NCBI GenBank assembly: GCA_937891465.1
Contig: CALAHF010000097.1
Location: 1 to 64,000, forward strand
Direction: 5' to 3'
DNA from: an uncultured Verrucomicrobiales bacterium
GTDB lineage: Bacteria > Verrucomicrobiota > Verrucomicrobiia > Verrucomicrobiales > DEV007
DNA: 64,000 nt
This document shows positions 13,414 to 39,830 of this stretch, one piece after another. The notes under the pieces are model-generated. The model worked only from the letters and a program-made list of their open reading frames with translations. It was not told the DNA's origin and searched no databases. Position 1 is the first letter of the stretch; each line of letters starts with the position of its first letter. A program made the position numbers and the translations under genes.

Positions 13414-13424
13414 GTAATTCTATT

Positions 13425-18218: not shown

Positions 18219-18291
18219 AACAGGGGTGAAAGCTGGCTTGCCCAGCAGTCTGATGATGAACGGAACGTTCACCGCAAGATGCTCTTGTTGC

Positions 18292-18332
18292 GAACATACA
18301 GGGTATGTTCATCGAACAGACCCTATCACTTC
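18292..18332. repeat. Tandem-palindrome repeat, copy 4
   Basis: Units GAACATACAGGGTATGTTC (a perfect 8-bp palindrome around AGG) and GAACAGACCCTATCACTTC with spacer ATC. It is joined to copy 5 by the linker GAAAAGCCATTTC, as in the copy 9/10 pair. Confidence 0.9.
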
Positions 18333-18345
18333 GAAAAGCCATTTC

Positions 18346-18386
18346 GAAGGTACGGGGTTGATTCATCGATCAAACAGGGTTGATTC
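18346..18386. repeat. Tandem-palindrome repeat, copy 5
   Basis: Units GAAGGTACGGGGTTGATTC and GATCAAACAGGGTTGATTC with spacer ATC. It forms a dimer with copy 4 and ends ~20 bp before the proS start codon. Confidence 0.88.
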
Positions 18387-18406
18387 GTGGACTCAATTTT
18401 TAATTC

Positions 18407-21518: not shown

Positions 21519-21526
21519 TCTTTCAC

Positions 21527-21567
21527 GAACCAACCCTGTTGATTCACCGAACGTACCCTATCGGTTC
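21527..21567. repeat. Tandem-palindrome repeat, copy 6
   Basis: Units GAACCAACCCTGTTGATTC and GAACGTACCCTATCGGTTC with spacer ACC. The TTG in unit 1 would give the following gene a false [12 protein letters not shown]-like start. Confidence 0.92.
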
Positions 21568-21610
21568 GAAAAAAAGCATTTTCTATCCACTCTTAATCTC
21601 GACCAACCTT

Positions 21611-22939
21611 ATGCGATTTTTAATTATCACTCTCAGCATTGCCGCCTCTTTGCCGCTCGTTGCTCAGCAACCAAATGCTCCTTACGATGTTTTCCCCGAA
21701 GCGGAGCCGCCCCACTATCGTGTTCGCTATGAAGCCTCGAACACACCCGGCGAGCTGACTTTTCCCGTGAAATACACGGTTTGGATTCCGGAGGGCGTCA
21801 AAACTCTCCGTGGCCTAATTGTCCATCAACACGGCTGCGGGGAAGGCTCGTGTAAATCAGGACTAACGGGCGCATGGGATTTGCACTGGCAGGCTCTAGC
21901 AAAGAAACACGACTGCGCACTGATGGCTCCATCTTACGAACAACCACAAGCAGCCGATTGCCAACTGTGGTGCGACCCTCGAAACGGTTCGGGTAAAGCG
22001 TTTCAAAAATCCCTCATCGATCTCGGGAAACAATCCGGTCACCCTGAGTTAGCAAAAATCCCATGGGCGTTGTGGGGACACAGCGGCGGCGGACATTGGG
22101 CTGGAGGAATGGTGTTGCTTCATCCGGAAAAGGTTGCAGCGGCATGGCTTCGCTCGGGCGTTCCGCTTTTTAAAGAAAACCCCGACCGCACCGCAATCAA
22201 ACCGTATGTCATTTCTGATGCCGTCTTGAAAGTGCCGATGATGTGCAATCCCGGAACAAAAGAAGGCGTGACCGTAAAAGATGGCCGTTTTTCCGGAGTG
22301 TGGCCTGCCAACGAAACATTTCTCACGACGCTCCGGGCTAAAAATGCCCTCGTTGGTGTTTCAATTGATCCACTAACCGCTCACGAATGTGGCAACCAAC
22401 GCTATCTCGCAACACTGTGGCTGGATGCTTGTTTGACCACGCGGTTGCCGGAGAGAGCCGGTGGCGCGTTGAAACCAATGCCGACGAAAAATGCGTGGTT
22501 GGCTCCTTTTCTTGGCAAAGAAGCCACACCTGAAAAGGAGTTTTCAGGCGATAAATCACAGGCCAGCTGGCTCCCGAATGAAGCCATCGCGAAGGCTTGG
22601 GCGCATTACGTTACCGATACGGAAATTCCTGATACAACTCCTCCACCAGCCCCGACTTCAGTAAAGGCTGATGGAAATCAAATCACGTGGACCGCCGACG
22701 CGGATTTAGAAAGTGGAATCGCCCGTTTCATCATCAAACGCGACGGCAAAAAAATCGGAGCGGTTCCCGAAAAAGATACGAACAAGTTTGGTCGTCCAAT
22801 TTTTCAAGGGCTGCAATACAGCGACACACCGGTGCAGCCTTTGGTTCAGATGCAATTCACTGATCAAACTGCCGAAGCAGGAAAGAAATACGAATACCAA
22901 GTAATCTCTGAAAACTCGGTCGGTTTAAAGTCAAAATAG
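21611..22939 (+). CDS. Secreted alpha/beta hydrolase with fibronectin-like C-terminal domain
   Basis: This 442-aa protein starts at ATG 21611 ([20 protein letters not shown], a signal peptide). The upstream in-frame TTG lies in a palindromic repeat and is rejected. The core has the oxyanion segment [11 protein letters not shown] and the nucleophile elbow [13 protein letters not shown] fibronectin-type segment (~365-442) follows, with [17 protein letters not shown] and a [12 protein letters not shown] end. The substrate is unknown; the extracellular location and neighbours suggest ester or glycan degradation. Confidence 0.82.
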
Positions 22940-23018
22940 GCCCGCCCGGTTTTCGGGGCGATAAATTTGGCGCGAGCAAGCCATGTTCATCTCACGCCGG
23001 ATAGCGAAAGATAGGACT

Positions 23019-23846
23019 ATGAAATTCGCCGCCACTTTCATCACACTTCTTTTCCTGACGCTATCCAACGTGATTGCAGAGCACGACGGGAAAATTCAAA
23101 TTTTGCTACTTGGAGACAGCACCACCGAAGGCAGTATTCCGCGACTGTTAAAGCCAGAGGGACCCCATTTTGAAGAAGTGATTCGTCGCTTGCTGGCGGC
23201 TGAAACGGATCTCCCGGCGTGCAACGTCATTCAATGCGGCGTGAGCGGGGAATATATACGAAGACTGCTCGACTCCGGCCGCTACGAAAAAGCGGCCTCA
23301 AAATTGCCGGGGCTCGATTACATTTTTGTCCGTTATGGAATCAATGATCGGGCAAGACGCGAAAAGTTTTCAGAGAATTTCACCAAAGATTTTCAGGAAC
23401 TCATTGCATTGCTACGAAAAGATCATCCGAAGGCCCTCATCATTCCGATGACCGTGATTCCCTTTGCTGACAAAGCCACAAGCAAAGAGATCAACGACCT
23501 GATTTTCCAAGTTGGGCGCGATGAGAAGCTCGCTGTGTTCGACATCTACCCACGCTATGCGAAAGAGCTGGAGAAAGGTCATAACATGCTGAACTACCGG
23601 CGATATTCGATCGAAAACATCCCCGAAAAATACAGGGAATGGATGGCTTCACAGGTTCACGGAGGCAAAGTTGTCGTCATGGGAAACGAATTCGACGCGC
23701 TCTTTGGTCATCTCCCAGGTTGGACCAGCGATCGGCATCCCAATCTCGCTGGATACAATGTCATCGCGGATGAAACTGCGAAATATTTGGCTCCGATTTT
23801 GCGGACGCGAATGAAGAAATCCCCGGTAAAAGTTGAAGCTAATTAG
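23019..23846 (+). CDS. Secreted SGNH-family hydrolase (GDSL-type esterase)
   Basis: This 275-aa protein starts at ATG 23019 with a signal peptide (MKFAATFITLLFLTLSNVIAE). Block I is LLLGDSTTEGS with the nucleophile serine. Block II is QCGVSGE, block III is RYGINDR (G-x-N-D), and block V is DRHPNLAGY with the Asp-His pair. All four SGNH positions are present. Such enzymes remove acetyl or other ester groups from polysaccharides or lipids. It may be co-transcribed with the preceding hydrolase (80-bp gap). It is convergent with the GH71/99-like gene, only 4 bp apart. Confidence 0.9.
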   Translation: MKFAATFITLLFLTLSNVIAEHDGKIQILLLGDSTTEGSIPRLLKPEGPHFEEVIRRLLAAETDLPACNVIQCGVSGEYIRRLLDSGRYEKAASKLPGLDYIFVRYGINDRARREKFSENFTKDFQELIALLRKDHPKALIIPMTVIPFADKATSKEINDLIFQVGRDEKLAVFDIYPRYAKELEKGHNMLNYRRYSIENIPEKYREWMASQVHGGKVVVMGNEFDALFGHLPGWTSDRHPNLAGYNVIADETAKYLAPILRTRMKKSPVKVEAN

Positions 23847-23850
23847 CAGT

Positions 23851-25203
23851 TCAATTGGCCGGAACCGCTGCTTTCTTCATTTTTTCTAAAGCTCGACTTG
23901 GCACTTCACCACGCAAAAGTCGCCCTCCCTCGCCACTCAACCACAAATAATGATCGCTCGGAAGGCCTTCGTAGGTTCCAAATTTTGACGTCCCAACTGG
24001 TGGATCGTTCGTGCATTTAAACAAAACGGTCCCCTCATCGATCTCATCGAACATTGCCAAATAGGCTGACTTGCTTCCAGCAGCAGCGGTCGCCTGAAAT
24101 TGCCGCCAAAGAAATTCACCGCCTTGCCGTGGGATTCCTTTTTCTTCTTCTCCGTATAGATTTCTCCAGCTGAACCCAGGAAACAATACTGGTAAATAAT
24201 CGATTTTTTCTTTGTCGCACCACGCAAGATCAGCCCGCTGATGATCAATGATTTTGGTCATCGCGTCAGGTTCAATTCCGTATCGACCCACTGCCCAAGG
24301 ACTGATCACATCGGCGAGTTTCAGCACCGAATGGAGTTTCGGATCATTCGTTGTATCGCGGAATTGCTCTCGCCAATAATACGGCGTGCCGAGCATAATG
24401 CTCATGCCACCCCACTCGGGATTATGTTTTAAAAGACGGATAAACCACTCTGCTTTTTCGAGACCGTATTTGCGATCATCGTTGAAACCCACACCCCAAA
24501 TCGCAACGAGAGGTTTTCCGTTTACGTGGAGATACGCAGAGTCGTTCGGGTCCGTTCCCAGTTTCATTTTCGTGCGCAGATTTTTCCAATCTTCCGCCAA
24601 GCGCTCGAAGTCGTCATCCGCTAGCCCCGACAAATCATACATCAGCACCCAGCTCCGATTGTGTTTGTTCGCAGCGTCCCGACACATCATCAGTTTTTGA
24701 TTCTCAGCTTTAAGCCGGCGATTATCGCGACGCTCCTTCGCCCCATGAGTTGCAAATCGCTGCACGAACGCTCCATCAATTCCGTATTCCGCCATCCATG
24801 AAAAATGCCGATCCGCTGTTTTAGGATGAATCGAACTGAAAACGTGAGCGACGCTTCCATCAGCATGACGAAATGGCGTAGCGAATTTTTCGTCGTCGCC
24901 GAATTCACTCATGTCAGGCCACAAATCAATCGTGCATGAGCCAGGTTCGAATTTCCCATTTTTTTCGTAGTGGCTGAATCGTAATCCCGTTCCATCACCT
25001 TCGGCACGGAACCAGCCCTGATAACCAGTGACCACTTTGCCAATGAGACCTTCTGGATTTCCCTGAGTATTACCGTCCTTGCTTTTCGCTGCCGGAGCCA
25101 ACACGGCATACGCATTCTCTCTGGAAACGGGAGGTTCAGCGGCACTTGCAAGACCAGAAATTGAAAGTGCAAAAACAAGAGAGAGGCAGGCAGTTTTACT
25201 CAT
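23851..25203 (-). CDS. Secreted GH71/GH99-like glycoside hydrolase
   Basis: This 450-aa protein starts at ATG 25203 (MSKTACLSLVFALSISGLASAAE, a signal peptide). Family features are GLIGKVVTGYQGWF near the start, DLWPDMSEFGDDEKF, WMAEYGIDGAFVQRF, and KPLVAIWGVGFNDDR. A late segment is YLAMFDEIDEGT, which holds the likely acidic catalytic loop of GH99-like endomannosidases. It resembles the PVC group annotated as family 71/99-like. It probably acts on mannose-containing glycans outside the cell (inference). Its start lies 121 bp from the divergent cytochrome gene. Confidence 0.8.
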   Translation of the reverse strand: MSKTACLSLVFALSISGLASAAEPPVSRENAYAVLAPAAKSKDGNTQGNPEGLIGKVVTGYQGWFRAEGDGTGLRFSHYEKNGKFEPGSCTIDLWPDMSEFGDDEKFATPFRHADGSVAHVFSSIHPKTADRHFSWMAEYGIDGAFVQRFATHGAKERRDNRRLKAENQKLMMCRDAANKHNRSWVLMYDLSGLADDDFERLAEDWKNLRTKMKLGTDPNDSAYLHVNGKPLVAIWGVGFNDDRKYGLEKAEWFIRLLKHNPEWGGMSIMLGTPYYWREQFRDTTNDPKLHSVLKLADVISPWAVGRYGIEPDAMTKIIDHQRADLAWCDKEKIDYLPVLFPGFSWRNLYGEEEKGIPRQGGEFLWRQFQATAAAGSKSAYLAMFDEIDEGTVLFKCTNDPPVGTSKFGTYEGLPSDHYLWLSGEGGRLLRGEVPSRALEKMKKAAVPAN

Positions 25204-25324
25204 TTGAAAGGAGACGAAATCTAACGCGGTTTTCTCAATCGACAAATGAAGCTGACATCGACCCGATGAGTATTTCTATGCGATTGGAGCAAATCAAAAT
25301 TCATGGTATTTGTCTGGCTCGCCT

Positions 25325-28300
25325 ATGAAACTCTTTCTCGTTCTTGCCGTCACCTCATTGCTTTTGATCCCTTTTTCAAGTGCGCAAGATGCCTCTGAGA
25401 CAGCAAAAAAGGCCGACCCCAAATCGCTGAAGTTCACCAAGTGGACGCCTGACTTTCCAGTTCCCGATCCAGTCGCGATTTCGTTTGATGAAAAAGGCCG
25501 CGCCTACGTCACGCAAACGCAACGCCGCAAGGCCAATGACATGGACATTCGGCCGAACTCGGATTGGATTCCAAACGATCTCAGTTTCGAATCTTCGGAA
25601 GACAAACGCGCTTTTTATCGAGCCCAATTTACCGCTGAAAACAGCTCTGGGAATGCCAAGCGAGTGAAGGATTACAACGGCGACGGCGTTCATGACATCA
25701 AAGACCTTACCGCGCTGACCGAACGCATTTACCTCATCGAAGACACCGATGGCGATGGACTTGCTGACAAAAAATCCGTCTACGCTGAAAACTTTCAGGA
25801 TGAGATTGCAGGTATCGCTGCCGGTGTTTTGCATCACGAAGGTGACGTTTACACCACGATCGTTCCCGATGTTTGGAAGCTCCGCGACACCGACGATGAC
25901 GGAAAAGCGGACACGCGCGAATCAATCGCCCACGGCTTCGGAGTTCACCTCGCGTATGCAGGCCACGACATGCATGGCCTGACGGTTGGCCCCGATGGCC
26001 GCATTTACTGGACTGTCGGCGACAAGGGAATGAACGTGACTTCAAAAGAAGGACTTAATTTCAAATACCCAAACCACGGTGCGCTGCTCCGCTGTGATCC
26101 CGATGGAAGCAATTTTGAAGTCTACGCCCGCGGTTTACGGAATGTTCAGGAAATCGCTTTTGATCAATACGGCAACATTTTTGGAATCGACAATGACTCC
26201 GATCGCCCCGGTGAGAAAGAGCGTTTCGTCTACATCGTTCAGCACATGGATGCCGGTTGGCGCTCGAATTGGCAGTATCGAAAAGACAAGTTCAATCCGT
26301 GGATGGACGAAAACATGAGCGTTCCTTATCAGGAAAATCAGCCAAGCCACATCACTCCGCCAATCAGTCTTTACAACAACGGCCCCGCCGGACTTGCGTT
26401 CAATCCGGGCACCGCGCTCAGCCCCGAGTGGAAGGACTACTTTTTTCATACCAGCGCCCCGAACGGCCAGCAGTGGGCGTTTCAGGTCGAAGAAAACGGC
26501 GCGAGTTTTAAAATGGTCAACGACATGCAAATCGGAAACGGAGTTCCGATTGTCGGTATCAACTTTAGTCCCGACGGGGCACTTTACGGTGTGGATTGGG
26601 GCGGGGGATATCCACTGAATGAGCAGGGTGCGGTTTGGAAATGGGATGTGGAAGTGAATCCTGAACAGCAAGTATACCGAAACCTAACAGAAGAATATTT
26701 GGCTCAAGATTTTTCGGCTGATAATATCGATTACCTGAAATTGGCTCAGTTTTTGGACCATGCAGATCAAAGAATTCGATTCAAAGCACAGTTCGAACTC
26801 GTAAAACGGAACGATCAAAATACGCTTCATCGAATTGCCATTAGTCGCAACATGGATTCAACAGACATCCAACTTCTTGGGCGAATCCACGCCATTTGGG
26901 GACTTGGTCAGTTCAATCGTAAATCGGAAAATCCTGATTTCGAAACGCTGATATCACTTCTTGGAGCCCCCAATGCAGAAATTCGAACGCAAGCAGCAAA
27001 GACCATCGGCGATCATTTCGGGCGGCATCTGGCGACGCACAAAGCCCCTTTTCCGAACGAACAAGGTCTGTTCGGCGAACGCACCCTGTTGGTTCAAAAA
27101 TTGATTCCGCTGCTTAAAGACGATTCCGATCGCGTTAAATTTCATGCGGCGATTGCGATTGGAAATCTGGGAATTGAAGACGGCGCGCAGCCGATTTTGG
27201 ACATGGTGAATGCGCTCGATAATGTGAATTATCCATATCTCCGGCATGCTGCGATTGTTGGGCTGACGGGTTGTGCGTCGTCCGAATTTCTCGAATCGAT
27301 TTATGACGAGACGTTCGAATTGGCCCACGGGGTAGCCGTTATCGCAATGCGGCGACGGGGTGATCCGGCGGTCGCAAAATTTCTGAACTCGTTGACTGGC
27401 GGCGTCTCGGAAGACGCTGCCCGTGCTATTCACGATGAGTGGATGATTCCTGAAGCCATGCGGGCATTGGCTGAAGCACTTGAGACGACCAAATTGATTT
27501 ACAGCGAACCGTTCATTCGCCGAGCGATCAATGCAAATTTCATGCTCGGAGAATCGGAACATGCTGAGCGCGTCGCTATTTTTGCGGCACGAAAAGACGT
27601 GCCGGAGGCGATGCGGCAGGAGGCGTTGGATGCGCTGACAAACTGGACAGAACCAGCGGTTTTGGATCGCGTGGTGGGCCGGTATCGCAAACACGAAAAA
27701 CGTGATCCGGAAATCGCCCGAGATCCATTGCGCCCTCACCTCGGTGATTTGCTAACAGACGCGAGTTCAGCAATCCAAACCGAAGCTATGTCGCTGGCGC
27801 GGAATCTGAAAATTGAAATCGATTCGGAAACTCTCATCGCCGTCGCGAAAAATCTGGATTCACTCCCCGAACTCCGAATCGAAGCGATGCGTGGACTTCA
27901 CGCCCAAAAATCGCCGGAGCTAGAGCCTGTTTTGGACGCGGCCTTAGGTTCAAAAAACAGCCCGCTTCGAATTGAAGCGCTGAATTTGCTCGCAAAAATC
28001 AATCCTGAAAAAGCGCTCCAGATTGGAAAAATCGTGACCGATACCGGGGGCAGTAAACTCTCCGAAAAACAAGCTGCCGTCGCGCTACTCGCTGGTGATT
28101 TGGCATCTGAAAAAGGCGATGTGGATTTAAGAACGCTCGTCGCGAATTTTAAAGAACTCCCAGCTGGGCTTCAACTCGATGTAGCCGAGGCGGCTGCGGC
28201 TCGGAAAATCGAGGGCGCACCGGAAGCGGATTTCACTCACACGCTGGAAGGTGGAAATGTGAAACGCGGCGAGGATATTTTCATGAATCACATTGCAGCT

Positions 28301-28549
28301 CAGTGCATTCGCTGCCACAAAGTGAAGGATGGCAGCAACATCACTGGTCAATTTCGTGGCGAGAAAGACGGGGTCATCGAACTTCGTGATCCCGAAAACA
28401 AAGTCACGAAAGTAAAATCCAAAGACGTCAAAGAGCGTTCCGCAGTGGTTTCAACCATGCCACCGATGGGACTGATTTTGCAAAAGCGGGAAGTCCGGGA
28501 CGTTGTCGAATATTTGGCCTCGCTAAAAGCGCCTGAGAAAAAGAAGTGA
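25325..28549 (+). CDS. PVC-type heme-binding CxxCH protein (NHL/dehydrogenase plus HEAT repeats)
   Basis: This 1074-aa secreted protein starts at ATG 25325 (MKLFLVLAVTSLLLIPFSSA). Residues ~35-430 form a PVC membrane-bound dehydrogenase-type beta-propeller with VPDPVAISFDEKGRAYV, DYNGDGVHDI, EDTDGDGLAD and DMHGLTVGPDGRIYW. Residues ~470-950 are HEAT-like helices. The C-terminal c-type heme site is CIRCH (C994-H998), followed by LRDPENKVTKVKSKDVKER and a MPPMG segment with the likely axial methionine. It should be an extracytoplasmic electron-transfer oxidoreductase of unknown substrate. A palindromic repeat encodes residues ~577-591 (NEQGLFGERTLLVQ) between HEAT repeats, with the frame kept. 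Confidence 0.88.
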   Translation: MKLFLVLAVTSLLLIPFSSAQDASETAKKADPKSLKFTKWTPDFPVPDPVAISFDEKGRAYVTQTQRRKANDMDIRPNSDWIPNDLSFESSEDKRAFYRAQFTAENSSGNAKRVKDYNGDGVHDIKDLTALTERIYLIEDTDGDGLADKKSVYAENFQDEIAGIAAGVLHHEGDVYTTIVPDVWKLRDTDDDGKADTRESIAHGFGVHLAYAGHDMHGLTVGPDGRIYWTVGDKGMNVTSKEGLNFKYPNHGALLRCDPDGSNFEVYARGLRNVQEIAFDQYGNIFGIDNDSDRPGEKERFVYIVQHMDAGWRSNWQYRKDKFNPWMDENMSVPYQENQPSHITPPISLYNNGPAGLAFNPGTALSPEWKDYFFHTSAPNGQQWAFQVEENGASFKMVNDMQIGNGVPIVGINFSPDGALYGVDWGGGYPLNEQGAVWKWDVEVNPEQQVYRNLTEEYLAQDFSADNIDYLKLAQFLDHADQRIRFKAQFELVKRNDQNTLHRIAISRNMDSTDIQLLGRIHAIWGLGQFNRKSENPDFETLISLLGAPNAEIRTQAAKTIGDHFGRHLATHKAPFPNEQGLFGERTLLVQKLIPLLKDDSDRVKFHAAIAIGNLGIEDGAQPILDMVNALDNVNYPYLRHAAIVGLTGCASSEFLESIYDETFELAHGVAVIAMRRRGDPAVAKFLNSLTGGVSEDAARAIHDEWMIPEAMRALAEALETTKLIYSEPFIRRAINANFMLGESEHAERVAIFAARKDVPEAMRQEALDALTNWTEPAVLDRVVGRYRKHEKRDPEIARDPLRPHLGDLLTDASSAIQTEAMSLARNLKIEIDSETLIAVAKNLDSLPELRIEAMRGLHAQKSPELEPVLDAALGSKNSPLRIEALNLLAKINPEKALQIGKIVTDTGGSKLSEKQAAVALLAGDLASEKGDVDLRTLVANFKELPAGLQLDVAEAAAARKIEGAPEADFTHTLEGGNVKRGEDIFMNHIAAQCIRCHKVKDGSNITGQFRGEKDGVIELRDPENKVTKVKSKDVKERSAVVSTMPPMGLILQKREVRDVVEYLASLKAPEKKK
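27055..27095. repeat. Tandem-palindrome repeat, copy 7, inside a coding region
   Basis: Units GAACGAACAAGGTCTGTTC and GAACGCACCCTGTTGGTTC with spacer GGC, lying in frame in the PVC cytochrome gene. It is the only copy found wholly inside a recognised domain-bearing gene in this window. Confidence 0.88.
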
Positions 28550-28558
28550 TTTAGCCGG

Positions 28559-29053
28559 TCAGTCTTTGATTTTAACGGGCTTGAATAATTTCGGAGGGAT
28601 CGGTAGAAGCTTTGTTTTAGCCATTTTCGTTACCCGTCCCTCGTTTCGAATCGCTAGTGCGTAAATGTTACCATCACGGCCTTTGAGTTCGAACGCTTCC
28701 GCCGTTGTATCGTTTTTTAGTGGAGGAAGATCGATGAATTCTCTCCTTTTTGCTTTTGGAGAAACCACCACAAAAGGCTGACCTTCGACGCTTTCATTTA
28801 ATTTAATCGCAAGGCGCACCGGATCGGCCGCATCGATCCGAATGAGCATTTTTGAATTAGAGCCCGGCAGCTCAATCTTCAACGAACCATCAAGAAGTCC
28901 CGCTTCCCATTCTGGATCAAGATTTAAAATAGCACGATCAGATGCCTGGTGAATGACCATTGGCGGTCTTTCTGGCGCACTCTTTTGGAATATCAGTACA
29001 GCGCCGAATACCCAAAAGAGAGCCGTAAACATGGGGCCGATTGCGCGTTTCAT
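28559..29053 (-). CDS. Membrane-anchored protein of unknown function
   Basis: This 164-aa protein is taken to start at ATG 29053 (MKRAIGPMFTALFWVFGAVLIF), which gives one N-terminal transmembrane anchor. The remainder is predicted to lie outside the membrane and includes ILNLDPEWEAGLLDGSLKIE and a lysine-rich C-terminus (KTKLLPIPPKLFKPVKIKD). I do not recognise the family. It ends 9 bp from the convergent cytochrome gene. Codon use looks like its neighbours. Confidence 0.65.
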   Translation of the reverse strand: MKRAIGPMFTALFWVFGAVLIFQKSAPERPPMVIHQASDRAILNLDPEWEAGLLDGSLKIELPGSNSKMLIRIDAADPVRLAIKLNESVEGQPFVVVSPKAKRREFIDLPPLKNDTTAEAFELKGRDGNIYALAIRNEGRVTKMAKTKLLPIPPKLFKPVKIKD

Positions 29054-29175
29054 AATGCTAATGCGTTGCGAAACCGGTTTTCGCCTGCCCTGAAGCGCTT
29101 CGCGGACCAGAAAATGCACAATTTTCAGCAAAGAAAGCTCAGAGTGAACGAGAGCAGCGGCTATTATTGGGCTCT

Positions 29176-29448
29176 ATGAACGCTTCCACTTGCCGAATTC
29201 TCAGCACGATCTTTTTTCAAGCTGGCGTGTTTTCAATACTGCTTTCGATTTTCATCTGGTGGTATCTGCGAGGAGGCACTCCGGACGAAATTACCCATGC
29301 CGAGCGCTTTGGTATTTTCGTCGGCCTGTGGGCTCCGACACTCTTGATTTTGTCCAACCGGTTTGATCGATTCGCCGATAAAGCCAAGGAATTTCCCGGA
29401 ACACGCCCTGAGCTTCACGAAGAAAATCAGGACGCGTCCGACAAGTAA
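29176..29448 (+). CDS. Small two-helix membrane protein
   Basis: This 90-aa protein starts at ATG 29176. It has two hydrophobic segments (~14-32 and ~47-65) and a charged tail (FDRFADKAKEFPGTRPELHE). It resembles the many short inner-membrane proteins of PVC genomes, and no specific family was recognised. It is divergent from the gene at 28559-29053 and convergent with ridA. Confidence 0.65.
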   Translation: MNASTCRILSTIFFQAGVFSILLSIFIWWYLRGGTPDEITHAERFGIFVGLWAPTLLILSNRFDRFADKAKEFPGTRPELHEENQDASDK

Positions 29449-29466
29449 TTCTGTTTCGAGATTCAA

Positions 29467-29913
29467 TTAGGATTTGATCTCAAAAATCGCTTCAATTTCG
29501 ACAGAAACGCCGGTCGGCAAGGCTGCAAAACCGACGGCACTGCGAGCGTGAAAGCCATCACCGTCTTTTCCAAAAATCTCGTGAAGTAAATCCGATGCGC
29601 CGTTGATGACAAGATGCTGATCGGTGTATTCCTGCTGAGAATAAACGCAGCCGAGCAACTTGATCACCCGCAAATCATCTAGAGTGCCATGTTCTGCATG
29701 AACGGATTGGAGGATTTTGATCGCGCAATCTTTGGCCGCTTCGTAGGCTTGCTCAGTTGTGACGGCACCGTCGCCAACGATCCCTTTTTGATCGCTGACA
29801 TGACCGGATGTGATCAATAAATTTCCAGTGCGAATGCACAAGTTGAGATAACCGGGCTCGCCCGCTTCAGGAAATTCAACGCCGAGGTCTTTTGCTGTTT
29901 GAGTGTAGCTCAT
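29467..29913 (-). CDS. RidA/YjgF-family protein
   Basis: This 148-aa protein starts at ATG 29913 (MSYTQTAKDLGVEFPEAGEP); the 13 codons before it are not conserved-looking. Features are LLITSGHVSDQKG, QAYEAAKDCAIKIL, LLGCVYSQQEYTDQ, GFHARSAVGFAALPTGVSVEIEAIFEI. The family deaminates reactive enamine/imine intermediates. It belongs to the longer YjgF-like subgroup with a ~20-residue N-terminal extension; the arginine in FHARSAVG is at the position used by active RidA members. It lies 54 bp downstream of an esterase gene. Confidence 0.92.
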   Translation of the reverse strand: MSYTQTAKDLGVEFPEAGEPGYLNLCIRTGNLLITSGHVSDQKGIVGDGAVTTEQAYEAAKDCAIKILQSVHAEHGTLDDLRVIKLLGCVYSQQEYTDQHLVINGASDLLHEIFGKDGDGFHARSAVGFAALPTGVSVEIEAIFEIKS

Positions 29914-29966
29914 GCGGTGAAAGTGCCGAGTGAGCGCCCCTGTGGCAAGCAAAAATCCGATCGCGT

Positions 29967-30809
29967 TTACGGAGTTTTAACTTTCTCCAAATCACCGTCC
30001 GCCTCAATGAACTGGATGACCGGCGCAATCACCGTTCCGGTCTTCCCGTATTTTTCCGAAAACGCCGCGAGGATGGTGATGTGATCATACCGGTCAAAGT
30101 AGATTCCTTTGGCGCGGCCTCCTTTTTCGAGGATGCGTTTCTCCAATTCTTCGGACTGATTCACGGGAACGAGCGGGTCATTTTTCCCATGTATAAGCAG
30201 GAACGGAGGCTCTGTCTCGGCGTCTCCATCGACAAATCCGATCGGCGCAATTTCGTCATCGGTCGCTTTACCAAAAATTCGTTTCAGCATTGGAATCTTC
30301 GACGGCTTCAAGGTCATTGGGCCTGACACACCGATGACGCCGCGAATGATTTCCGGTTTCACGTCAACCGCCTTGAGATAGCGCTCGTCCAATCCCAGTA
30401 GTGCCACCGAATGGGCTCCGGCCGAATGACCCATCAGAAAAATCTGCGTAGGATCTCCACCATGCGCTTCGATATTTTCCGTCACCCAAGCGACCGCTGC
30501 TGCGGCATCTTCGGGAAATCCAGGAAACGTTGATTCAGGAAACAACCGGTAATTGATAACCACCGCAACGTAGCCCTGACTCTGAAACATCTTCCCGATA
30601 AACTGATGCTGAGATTTTCGCCCCACACTCCAACCACCTCCATGAACAAAGACGACGACCGGAACGTCAGCTTCTGCATTTTGTGCGAAGACATCCAATT
30701 TGTGGCGCGCTGAATCCCCATAGGAAAATGTTTCGAACGATTGAGCCAAAAGTTGTGGGGCTCCAAATGCCATCAAGGCAAAGTTCAGAACGGGTAAAAA
30801 CGTCTTCAT
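29967..30809 (-). CDS. Secreted carboxylesterase-type alpha/beta hydrolase
   Basis: This 280-aa protein has a signal peptide ending near LLAQS. The oxyanion-hole motif is VFVHGGGW, the nucleophile elbow is GHSAGAH, the acid is in HGKNDPLVP, and the histidine is in DRYDHITIL. This is the BD-FAE/hormone-sensitive lipase-like arrangement, with all triad residues present. It likely cleaves acyl or feruloyl esters in the periplasm. A perfect hairpin lies just upstream at 30838-30872. Confidence 0.88.
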   Translation of the reverse strand: MKTFLPVLNFALMAFGAPQLLAQSFETFSYGDSARHKLDVFAQNAEADVPVVVFVHGGGWSVGRKSQHQFIGKMFQSQGYVAVVINYRLFPESTFPGFPEDAAAAVAWVTENIEAHGGDPTQIFLMGHSAGAHSVALLGLDERYLKAVDVKPEIIRGVIGVSGPMTLKPSKIPMLKRIFGKATDDEIAPIGFVDGDAETEPPFLLIHGKNDPLVPVNQSEELEKRILEKGGRAKGIYFDRYDHITILAAFSEKYGKTGTVIAPVIQFIEADGDLEKVKTP

Positions 30810-30837
30810 ATTTTCAAACTGGTATCAGCTGAAACGA

Positions 30838-30872
30838 AAAACGGCGCCGTGCTTTAAGAACACGGCGCCGTT
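30838..30872. terminator. Strong hairpin, likely terminator for the DUF4126 gene
   Basis: A perfect 13-bp stem AACGGCGCCGTG.../...CACGGCGCCGTT with a ~9-nt loop is followed by T on the right and preceded by an A-run on the left. It lies downstream of the DUF4126 gene (minus strand) and upstream of the esterase. Confidence 0.8.
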
Positions 30873-30915
30873 TAAATTTGACACACAAAACCGACTCAAG
30901 GAGTCTATTAAAAAC

Positions 30916-32037
30916 TTATTCCGATTCTAAAACGGTCGCTTCAGAGTTTTTATTAGAAGTTTCTGCAGTTTTTTTCACTTTTTTTTCCGAGTCGGATATT
31001 TCTGCCATTTCCGGACTGATTTCACCGCCCTGAACTCCAAGCACGCCTTCCACAACTCGTTCAGCTAAAACACGGTGCCCAGCATGCAGTCGGAAAACCA
31101 ATTTTTCTTTGGTGCTTCGATTAAAAATTACTAAATCTTCGCTGAGAAAGCGCGGTTCCTGAATAATCTCCATGTTTTCGAGCGAAATCGGAACATGATA
31201 ATCTCGGAACAAGCGACGCCCGATAAAATGCAGTGTGTTGTCGTCACCGTTTTCCAAAGAGATGATTGATCCAAACCCCTGGCTGGCGATTCCACGGAAT
31301 CCTTTGGTCTTTCCGACAAGAACATTCGCCGCCCAGCGAACATCCGGTTTTTCTCCGCCAATTCCGTCGGAGAGAGTCAGATCCTGATCGGAAGTCAGCT
31401 GCGAATACAAACGCAAGTGATCTTTCCGAGTGAATCCTGACGCAATCTTGTTCCAGACCAACCAAAGAAACGCTTTGGAGCGGCGAAACATTTTCGGCGC
31501 GAGATATAGTGAAACACAAAGGAAAGCCAGGCAGATGACACCGAAAAGAATTGGATTCGACCACATTAGAGCAATCCCGCCGAGAACCGCGACATCTCCT
31601 CCAACACTCGCCGCGATATTCGAAAACGGTTCGGGAGAGGTATTAATCGCCAGCCTCGTCCCCGCTTTGAAGCTGTGAGATACGAGCGATGTTCCGCCAG
31701 CAAGAAGCGCGATGATAACTTCAAACGCAGGCTCAGTCGGCCCGAGCGTGTGAAGGGCGAGCAATCCACCACCGATCGGACGAATCAACGTGTGGACAGA
31801 ATCCCACAGGGAATCCACCCAAGGGATTTTGTCGGAGAAAAATTCAAACGCAAAGAAAATGCCACTGGCAATGATGATTGCCGGCTCGCCGAGAACTTGA
31901 AGTTCAGGGTATTTCGCGATGACACTGATCATATCGTATTTGATAGCCAGTCCGGTGATGAAGACCGTCATGTATAAGTTCAGCCCTGCCAAAGTGGCGA
32001 AGCCGAGCGCGACGGCGAGTGTTTCGATTACGTCCAT
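30916..32037 (-). CDS. DUF4126-domain membrane protein
   Basis: This 373-aa protein has a hydrophobic N-terminal domain (residues ~1-185) with about five transmembrane segments. It begins like DUF4126 (ETLAVALGFATLAGLNLYMTV) and includes FFSDKIPWVDSLWDSVHTLI and GGTSLVSHSFKAGTRL. After ~200 comes a soluble domain of unknown type (VRWAANVLVGKTKGFRGIAS) ending in a charged tail with EKKVKKTAETSNK. Its function is unknown. Confidence 0.82.
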   Translation of the reverse strand: MDVIETLAVALGFATLAGLNLYMTVFITGLAIKYDMISVIAKYPELQVLGEPAIIIASGIFFAFEFFSDKIPWVDSLWDSVHTLIRPIGGGLLALHTLGPTEPAFEVIIALLAGGTSLVSHSFKAGTRLAINTSPEPFSNIAASVGGDVAVLGGIALMWSNPILFGVICLAFLCVSLYLAPKMFRRSKAFLWLVWNKIASGFTRKDHLRLYSQLTSDQDLTLSDGIGGEKPDVRWAANVLVGKTKGFRGIASQGFGSIISLENGDDNTLHFIGRRLFRDYHVPISLENMEIIQEPRFLSEDLVIFNRSTKEKLVFRLHAGHRVLAERVVEGVLGVQGGEISPEMAEISDSEKKVKKTAETSNKNSEATVLESE

Positions 32038-32443
32038 AGTGCTTGTCTCAGGTGGAGGATGGGTAGTGGGTTGGAGATTTCAATTTCGTGAGTCCGGAAA
32101 AACTGGATCCACGTAATCCACTGACATTCAGCCTCAAAATCTGGTTCCTAACCATTATAAACGGCAAGCCAGCTTGTAACCGTAGACAAACTCGAACGGA
32201 ATTTGTTCAAAATTGGTTAGCATCGATTCTTTACGAACCATCTCGGTTTTTTCGAACCGATCTATTAGGATCGAAAAAACGGGAATCCTGCTCAGAGCAC
32301 AGCCCCAACTAACCGAAGTTAGAATGAGGCTGTTATTCCCCCCCCCAAAAAATTATGGGAGACCTAAAGCTTAGCTTTTTTTATAGTAAAGCAAGAAGAA
32401 AGATCACCTTGCCAAGTTGATGAATATGCTCGTGGAGTTCTCG
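32038..32443. other. 406-bp intergenic region with repeat, G-quartet-free C-run and hairpin
   Basis: The region between two minus-strand genes holds palindromic-repeat copy 8 (32235-32272) and a run of nine C residues (32338-32346). A possible hairpin (AACTAACCGAAGTTAG) is also present. No convincing ORF was seen. The C-run followed by six A residues would be prone to slippage. Confidence 0.6.
32235..32272. repeat. Tandem-palindrome repeat, copy 8 (no spacer)
   Basis: Two degenerate 19-bp units, GAACCATCTCGGTTTTTTC and GAACCGATCTATTAGGATC, directly abutting. It is the only copy without the 3-bp spacer. Confidence 0.6.
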
Positions 32444-32806
32444 TTACGCCTTCTTAAACAACATGCTGATCCCCACGAGGATGAGAATTACCGCAAAGGT
32501 GCGGGAGAGCGTCGCATTGCTAAACTCCTTCATTTTGTCAGATATAAAATAGGCGGCGATCACCGCGCCGATGGCCGTCGGAATAAATACATTCCACTGA
32601 ACCAATTTATCTGCCGTGTAGTTGAAAATCGAGACCGCAGCCGTCGGGGCAATCACCGCCATTGAAGTTGCGACCGCCAGCTTGTGCTCCATTCCGAGAA
32701 AATAAACAAACGCAGGAACCATGATGATCCCGCCTCCGACGCCGCAAAGCGCCGCTACGGTTCCTCCGAGAACTCCGATGAGAAGAGCAATAACAATCAA
32801 TTTCAT
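32444..32806 (-). CDS. Half-size TSUP (TauE/SafE) transporter
   Basis: This 120-aa protein has three or four transmembrane segments and the TSUP start pattern LIGVLGGTVAALCGVGGGIIMVP, with GMEHKLAVATSMAVI. It is half the usual ~250-residue length, as in single-repeat TSUP members that probably dimerise. TSUP proteins move sulfite, sulfoacetate or other organic anions; the substrate here is unknown. Its start overlaps the holA stop by 4 bp, so they share a transcript. Confidence 0.88.
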   Translation of the reverse strand: MKLIVIALLIGVLGGTVAALCGVGGGIIMVPAFVYFLGMEHKLAVATSMAVIAPTAAVSIFNYTADKLVQWNVFIPTAIGAVIAAYFISDKMKEFSNATLSRTFAVILILVGISMLFKKA

Positions 32807-33906
32807 GCGGCAGGGGGACGGTGTAAAATTCGGGTAACAAGTTGATGTAAGACGAGATGTGGCTCCAGCGATGTCGTCACGAGTCGAAGGTTGGCTTCGA
32901 GACAGGCATCGAGTGCGTGCTTGAGCTCAGCAGCTGAAAACTTTCCGCATTGCTGAGCGGCCAGAAAAAGCGGGTAGCAGGAAATATTGCCGTCTTTCTT
33001 TCGCGGCAAAAAAGCAGTTTCTGCCGCAGGCAAACGCAGAACGGAAGCCTCGAAGCCTTTGAAATTTCGCCCGGCCTGAATGCGATGCCGTTCCGTGATA
33101 TCGCGGGCTTGCAGCATGCTTCGAACGCGAGGAACGATCGCTGCCAACAAAAGCCCAATCGCGCTTTCGCCACGACGCAGCTGCTGGTCAATCAGCTCAA
33201 CGCACAGCGGGAGGTTTCGGCGCGCAAGGGCGTCACCAATTTCAAAAATTACGCCTGTATGAGTCGATGTGATGATCGCGCGAACGTCGTCGACAGTAGC
33301 TTCGCGATCGCCCACGTAGAGCGAAAGCTTTTCCAATTCACTCTGCAAAAGCCGCGTATCAGCTCCGACCATGAGAACAAATCGCTCCAATGCATCGTGC
33401 GCCATTTTCAAACCCATCGCCGCCGCGCGAGTCGAGGCCACGTCCATCACCTGCATTTCCCAACCGTCTTTAGAAATGTCCGCCTTGTCGTAAAAGGTGA
33501 CTTTGGCGAGCTTGTTCACCTTTTTGTAAAACGACCGCCGCTTATCAATTTCCGACGCCGTGATGATGAATTTCACGTCCGAGGGAACACCCGCTTCGAT
33601 AAATTTCAGCAATTCCTCGACCGCTCCCAGAGTAGCTTGCGCACGCCCCGTGACCGAATCGCCAAAGAAATTAGCGCCTTGCAGCCAAACCACTTTTTCA
33701 CCGCCAAAAAACGGCAACGTCTGCAGCGCCTGCATCGTCAGCCCCACGATTTTCGACGCGTGATCCGAGTTATCCGCATTTCCATCGACCGTTTCGAGAC
33801 CAAACTCGTCATCCGCCGGCGACAGCTTTTTCGACAACGCAAGCCCCGCGTCTTTCACGCGAGCCTCGTCCGTTCCGAAAATGGCAAATAAATTAGGGTC
33901 TGGCAT
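32803..33906 (-). CDS. holA: DNA polymerase III delta subunit (HolA-like)
   Basis: This ~367-aa protein (start ATG 33906, MPDPNLFAIFGTDEARV) has the clamp-loader delta pattern: early FAIFGTDE, LQTLPFFGGEKVVWLQGANF, LLQSELEKLSLYVGD, VFEIGDALARRNL and ESAIGLLLAAIVPRVRSML. It loads the sliding clamp during replication. A TTG at 33966 in the same frame could extend it by 20 residues and overlap the peptidase gene; I prefer the ATG. It is downstream of the prolyl oligopeptidase gene, and its own 3' end overlaps the TSUP gene. Confidence 0.9.
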   Translation of the reverse strand: MPDPNLFAIFGTDEARVKDAGLALSKKLSPADDEFGLETVDGNADNSDHASKIVGLTMQALQTLPFFGGEKVVWLQGANFFGDSVTGRAQATLGAVEELLKFIEAGVPSDVKFIITASEIDKRRSFYKKVNKLAKVTFYDKADISKDGWEMQVMDVASTRAAAMGLKMAHDALERFVLMVGADTRLLQSELEKLSLYVGDREATVDDVRAIITSTHTGVIFEIGDALARRNLPLCVELIDQQLRRGESAIGLLLAAIVPRVRSMLQARDITERHRIQAGRNFKGFEASVLRLPAAETAFLPRKKDGNISCYPLFLAAQQCGKFSAAELKHALDACLEANLRLVTTSLEPHLVLHQLVTRILHRPPAA

Positions 33907-33956
33907 CGGCTGAGATTTCCACAGTTTTATGAATTGGTCCAGTTTGGAAATGAGAG

Positions 33957-36128
33957 TCACTCCCAACTCGAAAACAACCGCCGCGTCAGATACGTAAACT
34001 CCAGCGCACTTCGCTTCGCACGCTCGATCTGGTTAGCGGCTGCCGAATGCCCTCCATCAATATTTTCATAGTAGAAAAACGGAAGGTCGGCGTCTTCGAA
34101 TTTCTTCGCGAGTTTCCGAGCGTGGCCGGGATGAACGCGATCGTCTTTGGTCGACGTCACGAAGAACGGCACGGGATACTCTTTCGCGGGATCAAAATTG
34201 TGAACCGGCGAAATTTTCTCGAGAAAAGCGCGCTCCTCTGGGATTTCCGGCGAACCGTATTCGTCAACCCACGAAGCTCCAGCGAGCAGCAAATGATACC
34301 GCAGCATGTCGAGCAGCGGCACTTGAATGACGACGGCATTCCACAAATCCGGCCGCTGATTCAGCATCACACCCATCAGCAAACCGCCGTTGGAACCACC
34401 CATGATCCCGAGATGTTTGGGACTCGTTAAACCTCGCTCTATGATCGCTTCACCAACTGAAATGAAATCATCGTAGATGAGTTGGCGATTCAATTTCAAT
34501 CCTGCCTGATGCCATTTGGGGCCGAATTCCCCTCCCCCACGAATATTTGCGAGCACGTACGCCCCGCCTTTTTCGAGCCACAATCGGCCGGTCGTAGGAT
34601 TGTAACCCGGCCCGAGCGAAATTTGAAAACCACCGTAGCCATAGAGCAGCGTCGGCGTTGCCCCGTTGAATTCGATGTCTTCCCTATGAATGATGTAATA
34701 GGGAATTTTCGTTCCATCCGTCGAGGTCGTGAAAAACTGCTCCACCTTCAAACCGTCCGTGTTGAACTTCGCCAGCACGCTTTTCAACGTCGAGGTTTCG
34801 CCAGTGCGAACATCATATTTCAGAAGTGAATCCGGCGTGAGAAAACCGTCGTAGCTCAGAAAAACGGATGTTTCCTCGTCGTCCGCAAACGTCACTCCGA
34901 CCTCGCCAGTTCCCGGCAATTCGATCGGATCCGTCGTCCAAACTCCATTTTCGGACACATCGAGCCGCAGGACTTTTCCCGAAACATTTTCATTCAGCGA
35001 AAGCAAAACCGCCCCTTTGGCGATCGAAACGCCTGAAACAGCCTGCGTTTCATTGGCATGAAAAACGAGTTTCACCGCTGGTAAGGTCTTCGTTTTTAAA
35101 AACTCATCGATGCTAAAGGCAACGAGATCACCCGCCACATGGCTTTCCTGCCCTTCCGGCGACCAGTCCTGTTTCAACGTTACCAGCAACTGCCCTTTAT
35201 AAATTCCAGCCGGCGAACATTTAGGTGGCAACGGCCATTTTACCGGCGGCTCGCCATTCTCCGACAACAGCCAATACGTCGAAGTGAAAAACGTGTCTGC
35301 CTCATCAGCGCACTGCAACATGGTTCCATCCTCCAATTCCAACGTAAAAGGCCGCACCGCGACATCCGTTTTATCACCACGAATCACTTCAACCGCTTCT
35401 GACAACGGCGTTCCGCGCTTCCAGCGTTTTACGACGTAAGGATAGCCACTTTCCGTGACGGTATCATCGCCCCAATCCGTGCCAATCAAGATCGTGTCTA
35501 CATCAACCCAATCCACATTTTGCTTCGCCTCGGGCGTTTCAAATCCACCTTCAACAAACGTCTTCGATTCCAAATCAAACTCGCGATGGATCACGGCATC
35601 TTTTCCGCCATCCGACAACGCGACGAGGCATACAAATTTGTCTCCCCCCTTTGATCTAAAAGTATCCGAACCTTTGAAAATCCAGTTTTTTTCCTCATCG
35701 GCCGCGAGTTTGTCGAAGTCCAACACCGTTTCCCAATTCGGGTTTTCCTTCGCGTATTCCGCTACCGGAGTCCGCCGCCAGAGTCCGCGAACGTTCACAT
35801 CGTCCTGCCAAAAATTGTAGACCATTCCCTCGCGAACCCGGCCATAAGGAATTCGCTCTTTCGATGTCAGCACCTCGATCGCCGCAGCTTCATTGGCCGC
35901 GTAGTTTGGATCCGCCATCAAATCTGCCAGCGACCGCTCATTTTGCCCTCGAACCCATTCCAGAGCCTTTTCGCCCTCGACTTCTTCAAGCCACAGATCA
36001 TCCGCAGTTTCAGAATCAGAATTTTCGGCAGAAATCGGTTTTTCGTTCATTTTGTCGGGGTTAGGTGAATTTCCATTTTCGCACCCACAAAAAGCGGTGA
36101 GAAAAACCACAATAATGATCAATCGCAT
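33957..36128 (-). CDS. Prolyl oligopeptidase family (S9) lipoprotein
   Basis: This 723-aa protein has a lipobox LTAFCGC and so is probably a lipoprotein of the periplasm. The N-terminal beta-propeller region includes LWLEEVEGEKALEWVRGQNE near residue 45. The C-terminal hydrolase domain has LLYGYGGFQISLGP, ANIRGGGEFG and the nucleophile motif GGSNGGLL with S579. The acid is in STKDDRVHP (D663) and the histidine in DGGHSAA (H694). It matches S9A prolyl oligopeptidases, which cleave short peptides after proline. It heads a probable operon with holA and the TSUP gene. Confidence 0.93.
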   Translation of the reverse strand: MRLIIIVVFLTAFCGCENGNSPNPDKMNEKPISAENSDSETADDLWLEEVEGEKALEWVRGQNERSLADLMADPNYAANEAAAIEVLTSKERIPYGRVREGMVYNFWQDDVNVRGLWRRTPVAEYAKENPNWETVLDFDKLAADEEKNWIFKGSDTFRSKGGDKFVCLVALSDGGKDAVIHREFDLESKTFVEGGFETPEAKQNVDWVDVDTILIGTDWGDDTVTESGYPYVVKRWKRGTPLSEAVEVIRGDKTDVAVRPFTLELEDGTMLQCADEADTFFTSTYWLLSENGEPPVKWPLPPKCSPAGIYKGQLLVTLKQDWSPEGQESHVAGDLVAFSIDEFLKTKTLPAVKLVFHANETQAVSGVSIAKGAVLLSLNENVSGKVLRLDVSENGVWTTDPIELPGTGEVGVTFADDEETSVFLSYDGFLTPDSLLKYDVRTGETSTLKSVLAKFNTDGLKVEQFFTTSTDGTKIPYYIIHREDIEFNGATPTLLYGYGGFQISLGPGYNPTTGRLWLEKGGAYVLANIRGGGEFGPKWHQAGLKLNRQLIYDDFISVGEAIIERGLTSPKHLGIMGGSNGGLLMGVMLNQRPDLWNAVVIQVPLLDMLRYHLLLAGASWVDEYGSPEIPEERAFLEKISPVHNFDPAKEYPVPFFVTSTKDDRVHPGHARKLAKKFEDADLPFFYYENIDGGHSAAANQIERAKRSALEFTYLTRRLFSSWE

Positions 36129-36391
36129 GGGCGCTACTCGATAAAGGTTTGGCCATAATATTCAAAGAAAATGCCGATGAAATTCATGTCATGAGTCATT
36201 TCGCTTGAATCCCTGCCCAATTCAGTTATCACAACCTTCCGTATTGACAGGAGTCGCGGTCTAACAGACACCAAACACCCCGTCATTGTGGGGATTTATG
36301 TTTGCTTTTCTCCTAGTCTAAAAGGTTTGGGAACGGCAAGCGTAAATTCGATAAAACGACTTTACTAACTTCAATTCAACGCCTTCCAAAC

Positions 36392-37558
36392 ATGAGCCTC
36401 ATCGCCGAAAAATTCTCCCAAATTGAGCCTTCACAAACGCTAGCGATAACCGCAGCGGCGAAAAACATGAAGGACCAAGGGGTCGACGTAGCGAGCTTCG
36501 GAGCCGGTGAGCCCGATCTCGACACTCCCGACTTCATAAAGCGCGCCTGCATCGAAGCCCTCGAAGAAGGCAAAACCAAATACACCGCCGCGACCGGCAT
36601 CCCCGAGTTGAAAGAAGCGATTCGCGAAAAGCTTCTTCTCGACAACAACATCGATTACTCGACCAAGCAAATTTCCGTCAATTGCGGCGCCAAGCACTCG
36701 TGCTACAACGCAATTCTGGCGACCTGCGATCCCGGCGATGAAGTCATCATCCCTGCACCTTACTGGACGAGCTACCCGGAAATGGTTCGCCTTGCCGGTG
36801 CTGAGCCTTACATCGTTGAGACAAAGAAATCGAACAACTGGAAGCTGACTCCCGAAGAATTTGAGAACGCACTCGGCGGCGCAACTCGCATGGTCATTCT
36901 TAACACGCCCGGCAACCCAACCGGTTCGGTTTATTCAAAGGAAGAGCTCGAAGCACTTGTTGAAGTTGCCGCTTCCGAGGACGTCATCATTCTTTCCGAC
37001 GAAATTTACGAGAAGTTGATCTACAACGATAAGAAGCACGTCAGCGTTGCTTCACTCAGCCAGGAAGCCAAAGATCTCACGATCACAATCAATGGTTTTT
37101 CTAAAGTTTACGCGATGACTGGATGGCGCCTTGGTTACACCGCGGCACCTCAGGAGATTGCAGATGCGATTTCAATCATCCAGAGCCACACCACTTCGAA
37201 TCCTACGACATTTGCTCAATATGGAGCCGTTGCAGCACTCAAAGGTGATCAGCAAATCATCGGCGACATGGTCGACGAATACGACATGCGGCGCCAGTAT
37301 ATGTTGAGCCGCTTGCAGGAGATTTCGAACATCGAAATCGTCGAGCCAGACGGTGCGTTTTACTTCCTCGTTGATACCACTCAGATCGGATTGGGCTCGA
37401 TGAACCTCGCTGAAAAACTGCTCTCCCGCTTTAAAGTGGCAGCCGTTCCTGGAGTTGCTTTTGGACACGACAATTCAATTCGTTTCAGCTACGCGACCGG
37501 TCTCGACGTGATCAAAACCGGCATGGATCGCTTTCAGGAATTCTGTCAGCTCCACTGA
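36392..37558 (+). CDS. Class I aspartate/aromatic aminotransferase
   Basis: This 388-aa PLP enzyme shows ITAAAKNMKDQGVDVASFGAGEPDLDTPDFI, KYTAATGIPELKEAI, ILNTPGNPTGSVYS, SDEIYEKLIY, and the PLP-lysine motif GFSKVYAMTGWRLGY with K238. Arg in IRFSYATG near the end would bind the substrate carboxylate. It most resembles Ib-type aspartate aminotransferases of thermophilic and soil bacteria, converting aspartate and 2-oxoglutarate to oxaloacetate and glutamate. The 263-bp upstream region holds a hairpin with CAAACACCCC...GGGG...TGTTTG near 36270-36302. It stands alone. Confidence 0.95.
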   Translation: MSLIAEKFSQIEPSQTLAITAAAKNMKDQGVDVASFGAGEPDLDTPDFIKRACIEALEEGKTKYTAATGIPELKEAIREKLLLDNNIDYSTKQISVNCGAKHSCYNAILATCDPGDEVIIPAPYWTSYPEMVRLAGAEPYIVETKKSNNWKLTPEEFENALGGATRMVILNTPGNPTGSVYSKEELEALVEVAASEDVIILSDEIYEKLIYNDKKHVSVASLSQEAKDLTITINGFSKVYAMTGWRLGYTAAPQEIADAISIIQSHTTSNPTTFAQYGAVAALKGDQQIIGDMVDEYDMRRQYMLSRLQEISNIEIVEPDGAFYFLVDTTQIGLGSMNLAEKLLSRFKVAAVPGVAFGHDNSIRFSYATGLDVIKTGMDRFQEFCQLH

Positions 37559-37574
37559 TCTGGAAGTCTTCCAC

Positions 37575-37615
37575 GAACCAACAGGGTATGTTCAGCGAAT
37601 AGACCCTGTTGTTTC
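37575..37615. repeat. Tandem-palindrome repeat, copy 9
   Basis: Units GAACCAACAGGGTATGTTC and GAATAGACCCTGTTGTTTC with spacer AGC. It is followed by the linker GAAAAGCCATTTC and copy 10, matching the dimer at 18292-18386. Confidence 0.92.
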
Positions 37616-37628
37616 GAAAAGCCATTTC

Positions 37629-37669
37629 GAACAGATAGGCTTGGTTCATCAAAATTACCCTATTGCTTC
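37629..37669. repeat. Tandem-palindrome repeat, copy 10
   Basis: Units GAACAGATAGGCTTGGTTC and AAAATTACCCTATTGCTTC with spacer ATC. It sits 6 bp from the stop of the NtrC-like gene, between two convergent genes. Confidence 0.88.
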
Positions 37670-37674
37670 GAAAA

Positions 37675-39706: not shown

Positions 39707-39731
39707 GTGTCTACCAAGGATGATTTCAGGA

Positions 39732-39771: not shown

Positions 39772-39830
39772 CAAAGGCTGTGAGCATTTTTTAGTATAGG
39801 CGGCAGTTCGAGGTTGATCGAACGAACGCA

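Follow-up and report, generated by a model that had tools for sequence, protein, structure and literature searches.

A palindromic repeat read in frame in a PVC-type cytochrome gene belongs to an evenly spaced, clade-specific family and may be a protein-recognised chromosomal mark

Why does a gene for a PVC-type cytochrome carry, in frame, a copy of a palindromic repeat that otherwise lies mostly between genes? The question is raised by positions 27049-27101 of the window (the whole 64-kb stretch of DNA analysed here), where a 53-nt imperfect palindrome, TTTTCCGAACGAACAAGGTCTGTTCGGCGAACGCACCCTGTTGGTTCAAAAAT, with a core at 27055-27095 (GAAC...GTTC), is read as NEQGLFGERTLLVQ, approximately residues 577-591 of a 1074-aa protein encoded at 25325-28546. 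A repeat copy in frame at this place had been described in the first-pass annotation, and this was borne out. The copy scored 44.1 bits (E ~2e-11, nhmmer) against a refined 53-nt profile that has this copy among its own seeds, and still scored 40.8 bits with a model built from intergenic copies only. The half-unit GAACNNACCCTRTTGNTTC was found 22 times in the window against 1.07 expected, and 0 of 100 shuffles reached 22. In total, the window holds 12 copies of the family, the gene copy included. The host gene and the copies are as follows.

25325-28549, plus strand: host gene, encoding a 1074-aa PVC-type haem-binding CxxCH protein with HEAT repeats (translation, domain matches)
2162-2214, unstranded: family copy at a gene end (profile match)
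9949-10001, unstranded: family copy at a gene start (profile match)
13380-13417, unstranded: family copy, shortened or degenerate (35.1 bits)
18286-18338, unstranded: family copy, first of a tandem pair (profile match)
18340-18391, unstranded: family copy, second of that pair, 54 nt after the copy at 18286 (profile match)
21521-21573, unstranded: family copy close to a called gene start (profile match)
27049-27101, plus strand: 53-nt copy in frame in the PVC-type cytochrome/HEAT gene (44.1 bits)
37569-37621, unstranded: family copy, first of a tandem pair (profile match)
37623-37675, unstranded: family copy, second of that pair (profile match)
43799-43851, unstranded: family copy close to a called gene start (profile match)
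46384-46436, unstranded: intergenic family copy, the top scorer of the window, reading TNQQGTFDEPTLLVR on the minus strand (60.4 bits)
60827-60879, unstranded: family copy close to a called gene start (profile match)

The minus-strand reading of the copy at 46384-46436 confirms a second claim of the annotation, that an intergenic copy gives a related peptide. The repeat unit was found to consist of two 19-nt dyads, GAACnnAC(AGG/CCT)GTnnGTTC, placed 22 nt apart, with four GA(N)C/G(N')TC half-sites per unit around AACAGGGT...ACCCTGTT. Paired dyads are the dominant form, and some of these pairs occur twice, 54 nt apart. The whole element is 44-53 nt long, two-fold symmetric and bipartite.

To place the window copies in their genomic setting, we searched the genome that holds the window (G000; 5.97 Mb, 229 contigs). 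We found 280 copies in 238 loci in the 1.62 Mb examined, which by scaling corresponds to ~1,000 copies and ~870 loci in the whole genome, or one per 6-8 kb. Profile matches numbered 226 in 1.24 Mb of real sequence and 0 after block-shuffling. Most copies are intergenic, by gene calls from a simple codon-usage caller with which the classes close to gene ends are approximate. The occupancy of tandem, convergent and divergent junctions was 0.15, 0.19 and 0.16, respectively, showing little dependence on gene orientation, and very short junctions were still occupied in ~11-12% of cases. Motif matches were found in at least 38 of 75 genomes of the host family, in four genera only; the per-genome counts are lower bounds because the best 70-140 candidates in each genome alone were scored. 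The repeat was also present in records of the Verrucomicrobiales MAGs SS_bin_30 and new MAG-12. A literature search returned no paper on such a motif in Verrucomicrobiota, which is weak evidence, subscription journals being outside its reach.

A palindrome found mainly between genes could act as an RNA or DNA hairpin (a terminator, an mRNA stabiliser or a REP-like element), with the copy in the PVC gene being accidental. Some copies do fold well, such as that at 46384-46436 (z -6.9), but of the four copies for which folding was computed, two, 27049-27101 among them, were no better than shuffles. Among 161 copies, there was no pairing covariation beyond column frequencies in either a local or a long hairpin. 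The consensus is T-rich before the dyad and A-rich after it, which is the wrong order for a terminator. The lack of covariation and of a clear orientation preference rules out a hairpin or terminator role as tried here, and we regard the hairpin explanation as a whole as very unlikely. In the same 161 copies, column conservation was very uneven, with some columns near-invariant and others free. Because pairs do not covary and columns are conserved unevenly, the alignment fits independent half-sites that a protein would recognise, rather than a selected hairpin or the neutral decay of a master copy.

We compared the PVC-gene site across relatives. The same site was occupied in five species, G000 and G001 of genus g1 and G012, G023 and G085 of genus g12, in which the segments read NEQGLFGERTLLV, KQQGLFDERTLLT, NQQGRLSDRNLLH, TQEGKVEDRTRLS and SKEGRVADRTLLS. 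The loop is 5 aa shorter and without a convincing motif in most g2 genes. Outside the clade it is 17-19 aa shorter, and relatives without the repeat family have none of these residues. The annotation had proposed an insertion of the Rickettsia type, adding ~15 residues to a surface loop, and had named the absence of residues ~577-591 from relatives as the sign to look for. This absence holds for relatives lacking the family and does not hold for G001 and the three g12 species; the added length agrees with the comparison outside the clade and not with the gain of 5 aa over g2. The PVC gene tree, built with the element columns excluded, is (g12,(g1,g2)), and therefore the segment was either lost in g2 or gained twice. 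Since the site is common to five species of two genera, an insertion would be an old event and not a young, species-level one. From these alignments, an insertion origin for the PVC-gene copy is plausible if placed that far back, and the site probably predates the split of the two genera, its dialect having changed along with the host.

Two further observations concern the same protein. Seven g2 species have a motif-like TQEGLxxxxTLL elsewhere in the PVC gene, without a gap relative to species lacking the motif. This stretch scored at most 24 bits with a model untrained on it and 13.5 bits with a stricter leave-out model, which is suggestive of a second element site. A single-sequence structural model of residues 440-720 (mean pLDDT 56) gave a weak loop at 572-579 and a helix at 580-598. 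At this low confidence, the encoded segment may form the loop together with the start of the next helix, so that the surface-loop location proposed earlier would apply to its first part and not to the part running into the helix.

Copies were also identified inside genes for a class A PBP (C164), the pantoate-beta-alanine ligase PanC (C20), a NuoH-like protein (C165), a GlmM-like phosphoglucosamine mutase (C105) and an FG-GAP protein (C204). The C162 gene with a copy encodes what we take from its sequence to be a CysS-like cysteinyl-tRNA synthetase, and the C80 gene presumably encodes a GlpD-like protein. In a gene for an M56/BlaR1-type peptidase (C175:1434-2954), two in-frame copies lie 100 nt apart. 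Confident in-gene copies are nearly all in one frame, with the peptide xNQQGxxDEPTLLVR. In the first 1.24 Mb, every copy that scored at least 30 bits and had 60 aa or more between it and either end of its gene was in frame 2. The copies in the added stretch at C162:18794 and C80:140525 were in frame 2 as well, with C176:7143 (30.6 bits) as the exception. Of the three frames, frame 2 is open in the fewest intergenic copies (on 108 of 232 strands; the other two are open on 162 and 132), yet it is near-universal in genes, so a chance reading frame was rejected. For the same reason, the frame bias probably reflects tolerance of the encoded peptide.

The in-gene copies differ in how much length they add. 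In PanC, the g1 and g12 copies are at the same place without added length (0/-2 aa for G000). CysS of G000 is 2 aa longer than that of G002, and the g12 CysS is the longest; the net change in PBP1C is ~-3 to +3 aa for G000. The copies in these three genes replace native residues, with a net change of ~-3 to +7 aa depending on the comparison, and the native PanC and CysS segments are similar to the element-encoded peptide. Relative to G019, the GlmM copy adds 9 to 11 aa, and this site is occupied in g1 alone. The idea of a Rickettsia-type insertion is supported in that the family is genome-wide and read in the same frame in other genes, and gains no support from PanC, CysS and PBP1C, where the copies are near length-neutral.

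The half-sites were found in three dialects: GAAC/GTTC in G000 and G001, GATC/GATC in G012, and GACC/GGTC in G023, G084, G085 and many g2 species. We scored orthologous gene copies, picked by their presence in G000 and not by dialect, with profiles trained without the tested sites. Third-dialect scores came from a leave-out model used in place of an earlier profile that had recruited conserved g2 coding sites. At the PVC site, G000 and G001 scored 40.8 and 50.5 bits with the g1 model, both above the other models; G012 scored 40.8 bits with its own model, and G023 and G085 scored 25.8 and 29.4 bits with the third model, the other models again being lower. The own-dialect model was also the best for PanC (46.9, 39.8 and 40.4 bits in G000, G012 and G023, respectively) and, in G000, G001 and G012, for CysS and PBP1C. 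Where G000 and G001 have the same amino acid, they also share the codon at 44 of 55 positions in the element, against 807 of 1800 outside it (p 1.5e-7). Any of three processes could account for this codon identity: continuing constraint, conversion among the copies, or re-acquisition on repeated occasions. One ancient insertion that drifted with selection acting on the protein only would not produce it. In one g2 genome (G049), strong copies in the G012 dialect were all on contig C14 (6290, 18851, 23485 and 44795), where transfer or a contaminating contig is possible.

These results bear on the explanation that the segment is ordinary ancestral protein sequence whose likeness to the repeats is due to chance or codon usage. 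The presence of the PVC site in five species from two genera, a sign of its age, and the resemblance of native PanC and CysS segments to the encoded peptide are in line with it. It does not agree with the score from the intergenic-only model, the lack of matches in shuffled sequence, the common frame in several unrelated genes, or the switch of dialect with the host, and we consider it extremely improbable.

Another explanation is a mobile palindrome that is non-autonomous, either MITE-like or of the type of the Rickettsia palindromic element (RPE), with some in-frame copies tolerated as extra loop residues. It would account for the ~1,000 copies, the in-frame copies in many genes, and the longer loops in GlmM and, compared with sequences outside the clade, in the PVC gene. 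Occurrence is all-or-none: isolated half motifs were not in excess (CAACAGGGT occurs 116 times in total, 2 of them outside copies), and gradual build-up from partial motifs was rejected. Two neighbouring genes that are 11 bp apart in G000 (C164:100680-100692) are ~58 bp apart in G001, with a copy in between (L217:1400-1470). This looks like a plain ~47-nt insertion and is the top candidate for a recent gain; the apparent empty-site pair is too diverged to read a target-site duplication. Mobility is at odds with the almost length-for-length exchange of residues in PanC, CysS and PBP1C, the gapless second PVC-gene site in the seven g2 species, the conserved codons and the tracking of each host's dialect by orthologous gene copies. 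No linked transposase was found in a search for the Y1 family (PF01797). Y1 (RAYT-type) transposases are common in the host family and rare in g1, with one degenerate gene in G000 and one weak match in G001, and this scarcity rules out RAYT/REP mobilisation; a GTAG or CGTC end tag is likewise absent from the g1 consensus.

Mobility would also need target immunity to produce the spacing of the copies. The coefficient of variation of inter-locus distances was 0.626 in G000 (238 loci, 1.62 Mb) and 0.497 in G012 (43 loci, 382 kb), against 0.89-0.97 in simulations of three kinds (500 each; 0.92-0.97 for G000), in which 0 of 500 were as regular for either genome. When simulations were matched for junction type and length, 0 of 1000 (G000) and 3 of 1000 (G012) were as regular, and saturation of junction types as the source of the even spacing was ruled out by this stratification. 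The G000 result was robust to score cut-offs and merging distances; that of G012 was weaker at the strictest cut-off, where 4-15 of 400 simulations matched it. Gaps below 2 kb made up 2.7% in G000, against 21% expected, and the ratio of observed to expected pair density was 0.04 for distances of 0-1 kb and 0.24 for 1-2 kb, with almost no close neighbours other than tandem pairs up to ~2 kb. In-gene copies lie a median of 4.0 kb from other copies, compared with 2.0 kb for random genic sites (P 0.0004); the 27049 copy splits an otherwise 16-kb gap from 21521 to 37569. With this spacing added to the evidence, we judge a mobile palindrome to be unlikely, though well worth retaining as an alternative. 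The largest copy-free gaps, considered as possible horizontal islands, had no clear compositional shift. The largest stretch without a good copy in G000 (C163:75272-113573, 38 kb) has a GC content of 0.540 against 0.510 and contains weak partial matches.

Taken together, the regular spacing, the dialects and the conserved codons suggest a role at the level of DNA, which Rickettsia palindromic elements are not known to have. With moderate confidence, we favour the explanation that the element is a clade-specific, evenly spaced mark, recognised by a protein and kept by a biased process that would be uptake-like or nucleoid-organising, the two taken jointly. We infer the binding protein, the maintaining process and the function of the mark as follows. 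A putative sequence-specific DNA-binding protein would recognise the half-sites, and a biased process would keep the sites matched to its preference and spread over the chromosome. Marked DNA might be taken up and recombined preferentially, in the manner of uptake sequences, or there might be selection for regular anchoring of the nucleoid. In stretches that would leave a long gap, a site may be kept inside a gene, nearly always in the frame that fits a loop and helix start. Several observations go against a protein-recognised mark. The ~47-nt intergenic insertion in G001 and the 9-11 aa added to GlmM are as a mobile element would give, and tandem pairs 54 nt apart are not predicted by strict spacing. 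Intergenic sites also turn over, with 0 of 4 occupied junctions common to G000 and G012, and the long palindrome is unlike known uptake sequences.

Known systems resemble the element in part. Uptake sequences have relatively even spacing (PMC7811141, and Karlin et al. as reported in PMC1939737), form lineage dialects (PMC3630211) and often arise by recombination and not by point mutation (PMC2397512). Like the DUS of Neisseriaceae and the USS of Pasteurellaceae, the element has many copies, even spacing, dialects and copies in genes. It is several times sparser than USS (~1 kb spacing) and, unlike the non-palindromic 9-12 nt cores of DUS and USS, it is ~44 nt long, two-fold symmetric and bipartite, in a host of another phylum. 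Nucleoid-organising proteins such as MatP (matS) and Noc have palindromic recognition sites spread over the chromosome and tolerated in genes. Those sites number in the tens, whereas the element has ~870 loci genome-wide and a double dyad at 22 nt, and its protein is only putative. By analogy, uptake sequences would be the best precedent for the mark, and its symmetry and length may fit nucleoid-type binding sites better. Rickettsia palindromic elements are read in frame within unrelated genes, where they encode a conserved peptide (Ogata et al. 2000, 2002, as cited in PMC10969869). The element shares with them the short palindromic form, the in-frame position in protein genes and a conserved peptide. 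It differs from them (~150 bp, nearly half in genes in R. conorii) in its length of 44-53 nt and mostly intergenic location, in having several gene copies that are length-neutral, and in its even spacing and dialects. REP/BIME elements are likewise palindromic, mainly extragenic and present in hundreds of copies; unlike those associated with RAYT, the element is evenly spaced and without end tag, RAYT association or hairpin covariation.

More tentatively, the ~870 bipartite palindromic sites at 6-8 kb might constitute a chromosomal address system that co-evolves in dialects with a putative clade-specific DNA-binding protein, a possibility to which we give less than even weight. If true, this co-evolution would be strong enough to change codons within essential genes (cysS, panC, class A PBP and glmM), and uptake-like or architectural genome marks would have evolved independently outside the two classic families. 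The palindromic, bipartite site hints at a multimeric binding protein. The shift of hundreds of sites together between dialects becomes testable, since essential genes offer orthologous sites for comparison between dialects, and so does the way in which proteins absorb DNA marks. The case also cautions that a repeat read in frame is not always a selfish insertion.

The window contains other repeats that do not belong to the family. A second, unrelated dispersed repeat, CTCTGTGTGCTCTGTGTCTCTGTGCGACCTCCCGATCAAC, was found at 39729-39795, 40281-40336, 43206-43276 and 43730-43786, with direct and inverted copies bordering ~0.5-kb stretches. Other long inverted repeats were located at 46443-46601 (I9), 53577-53841 (I5) and 53937-54029 (I20), the last being a perfect inverted repeat of 21 nt.
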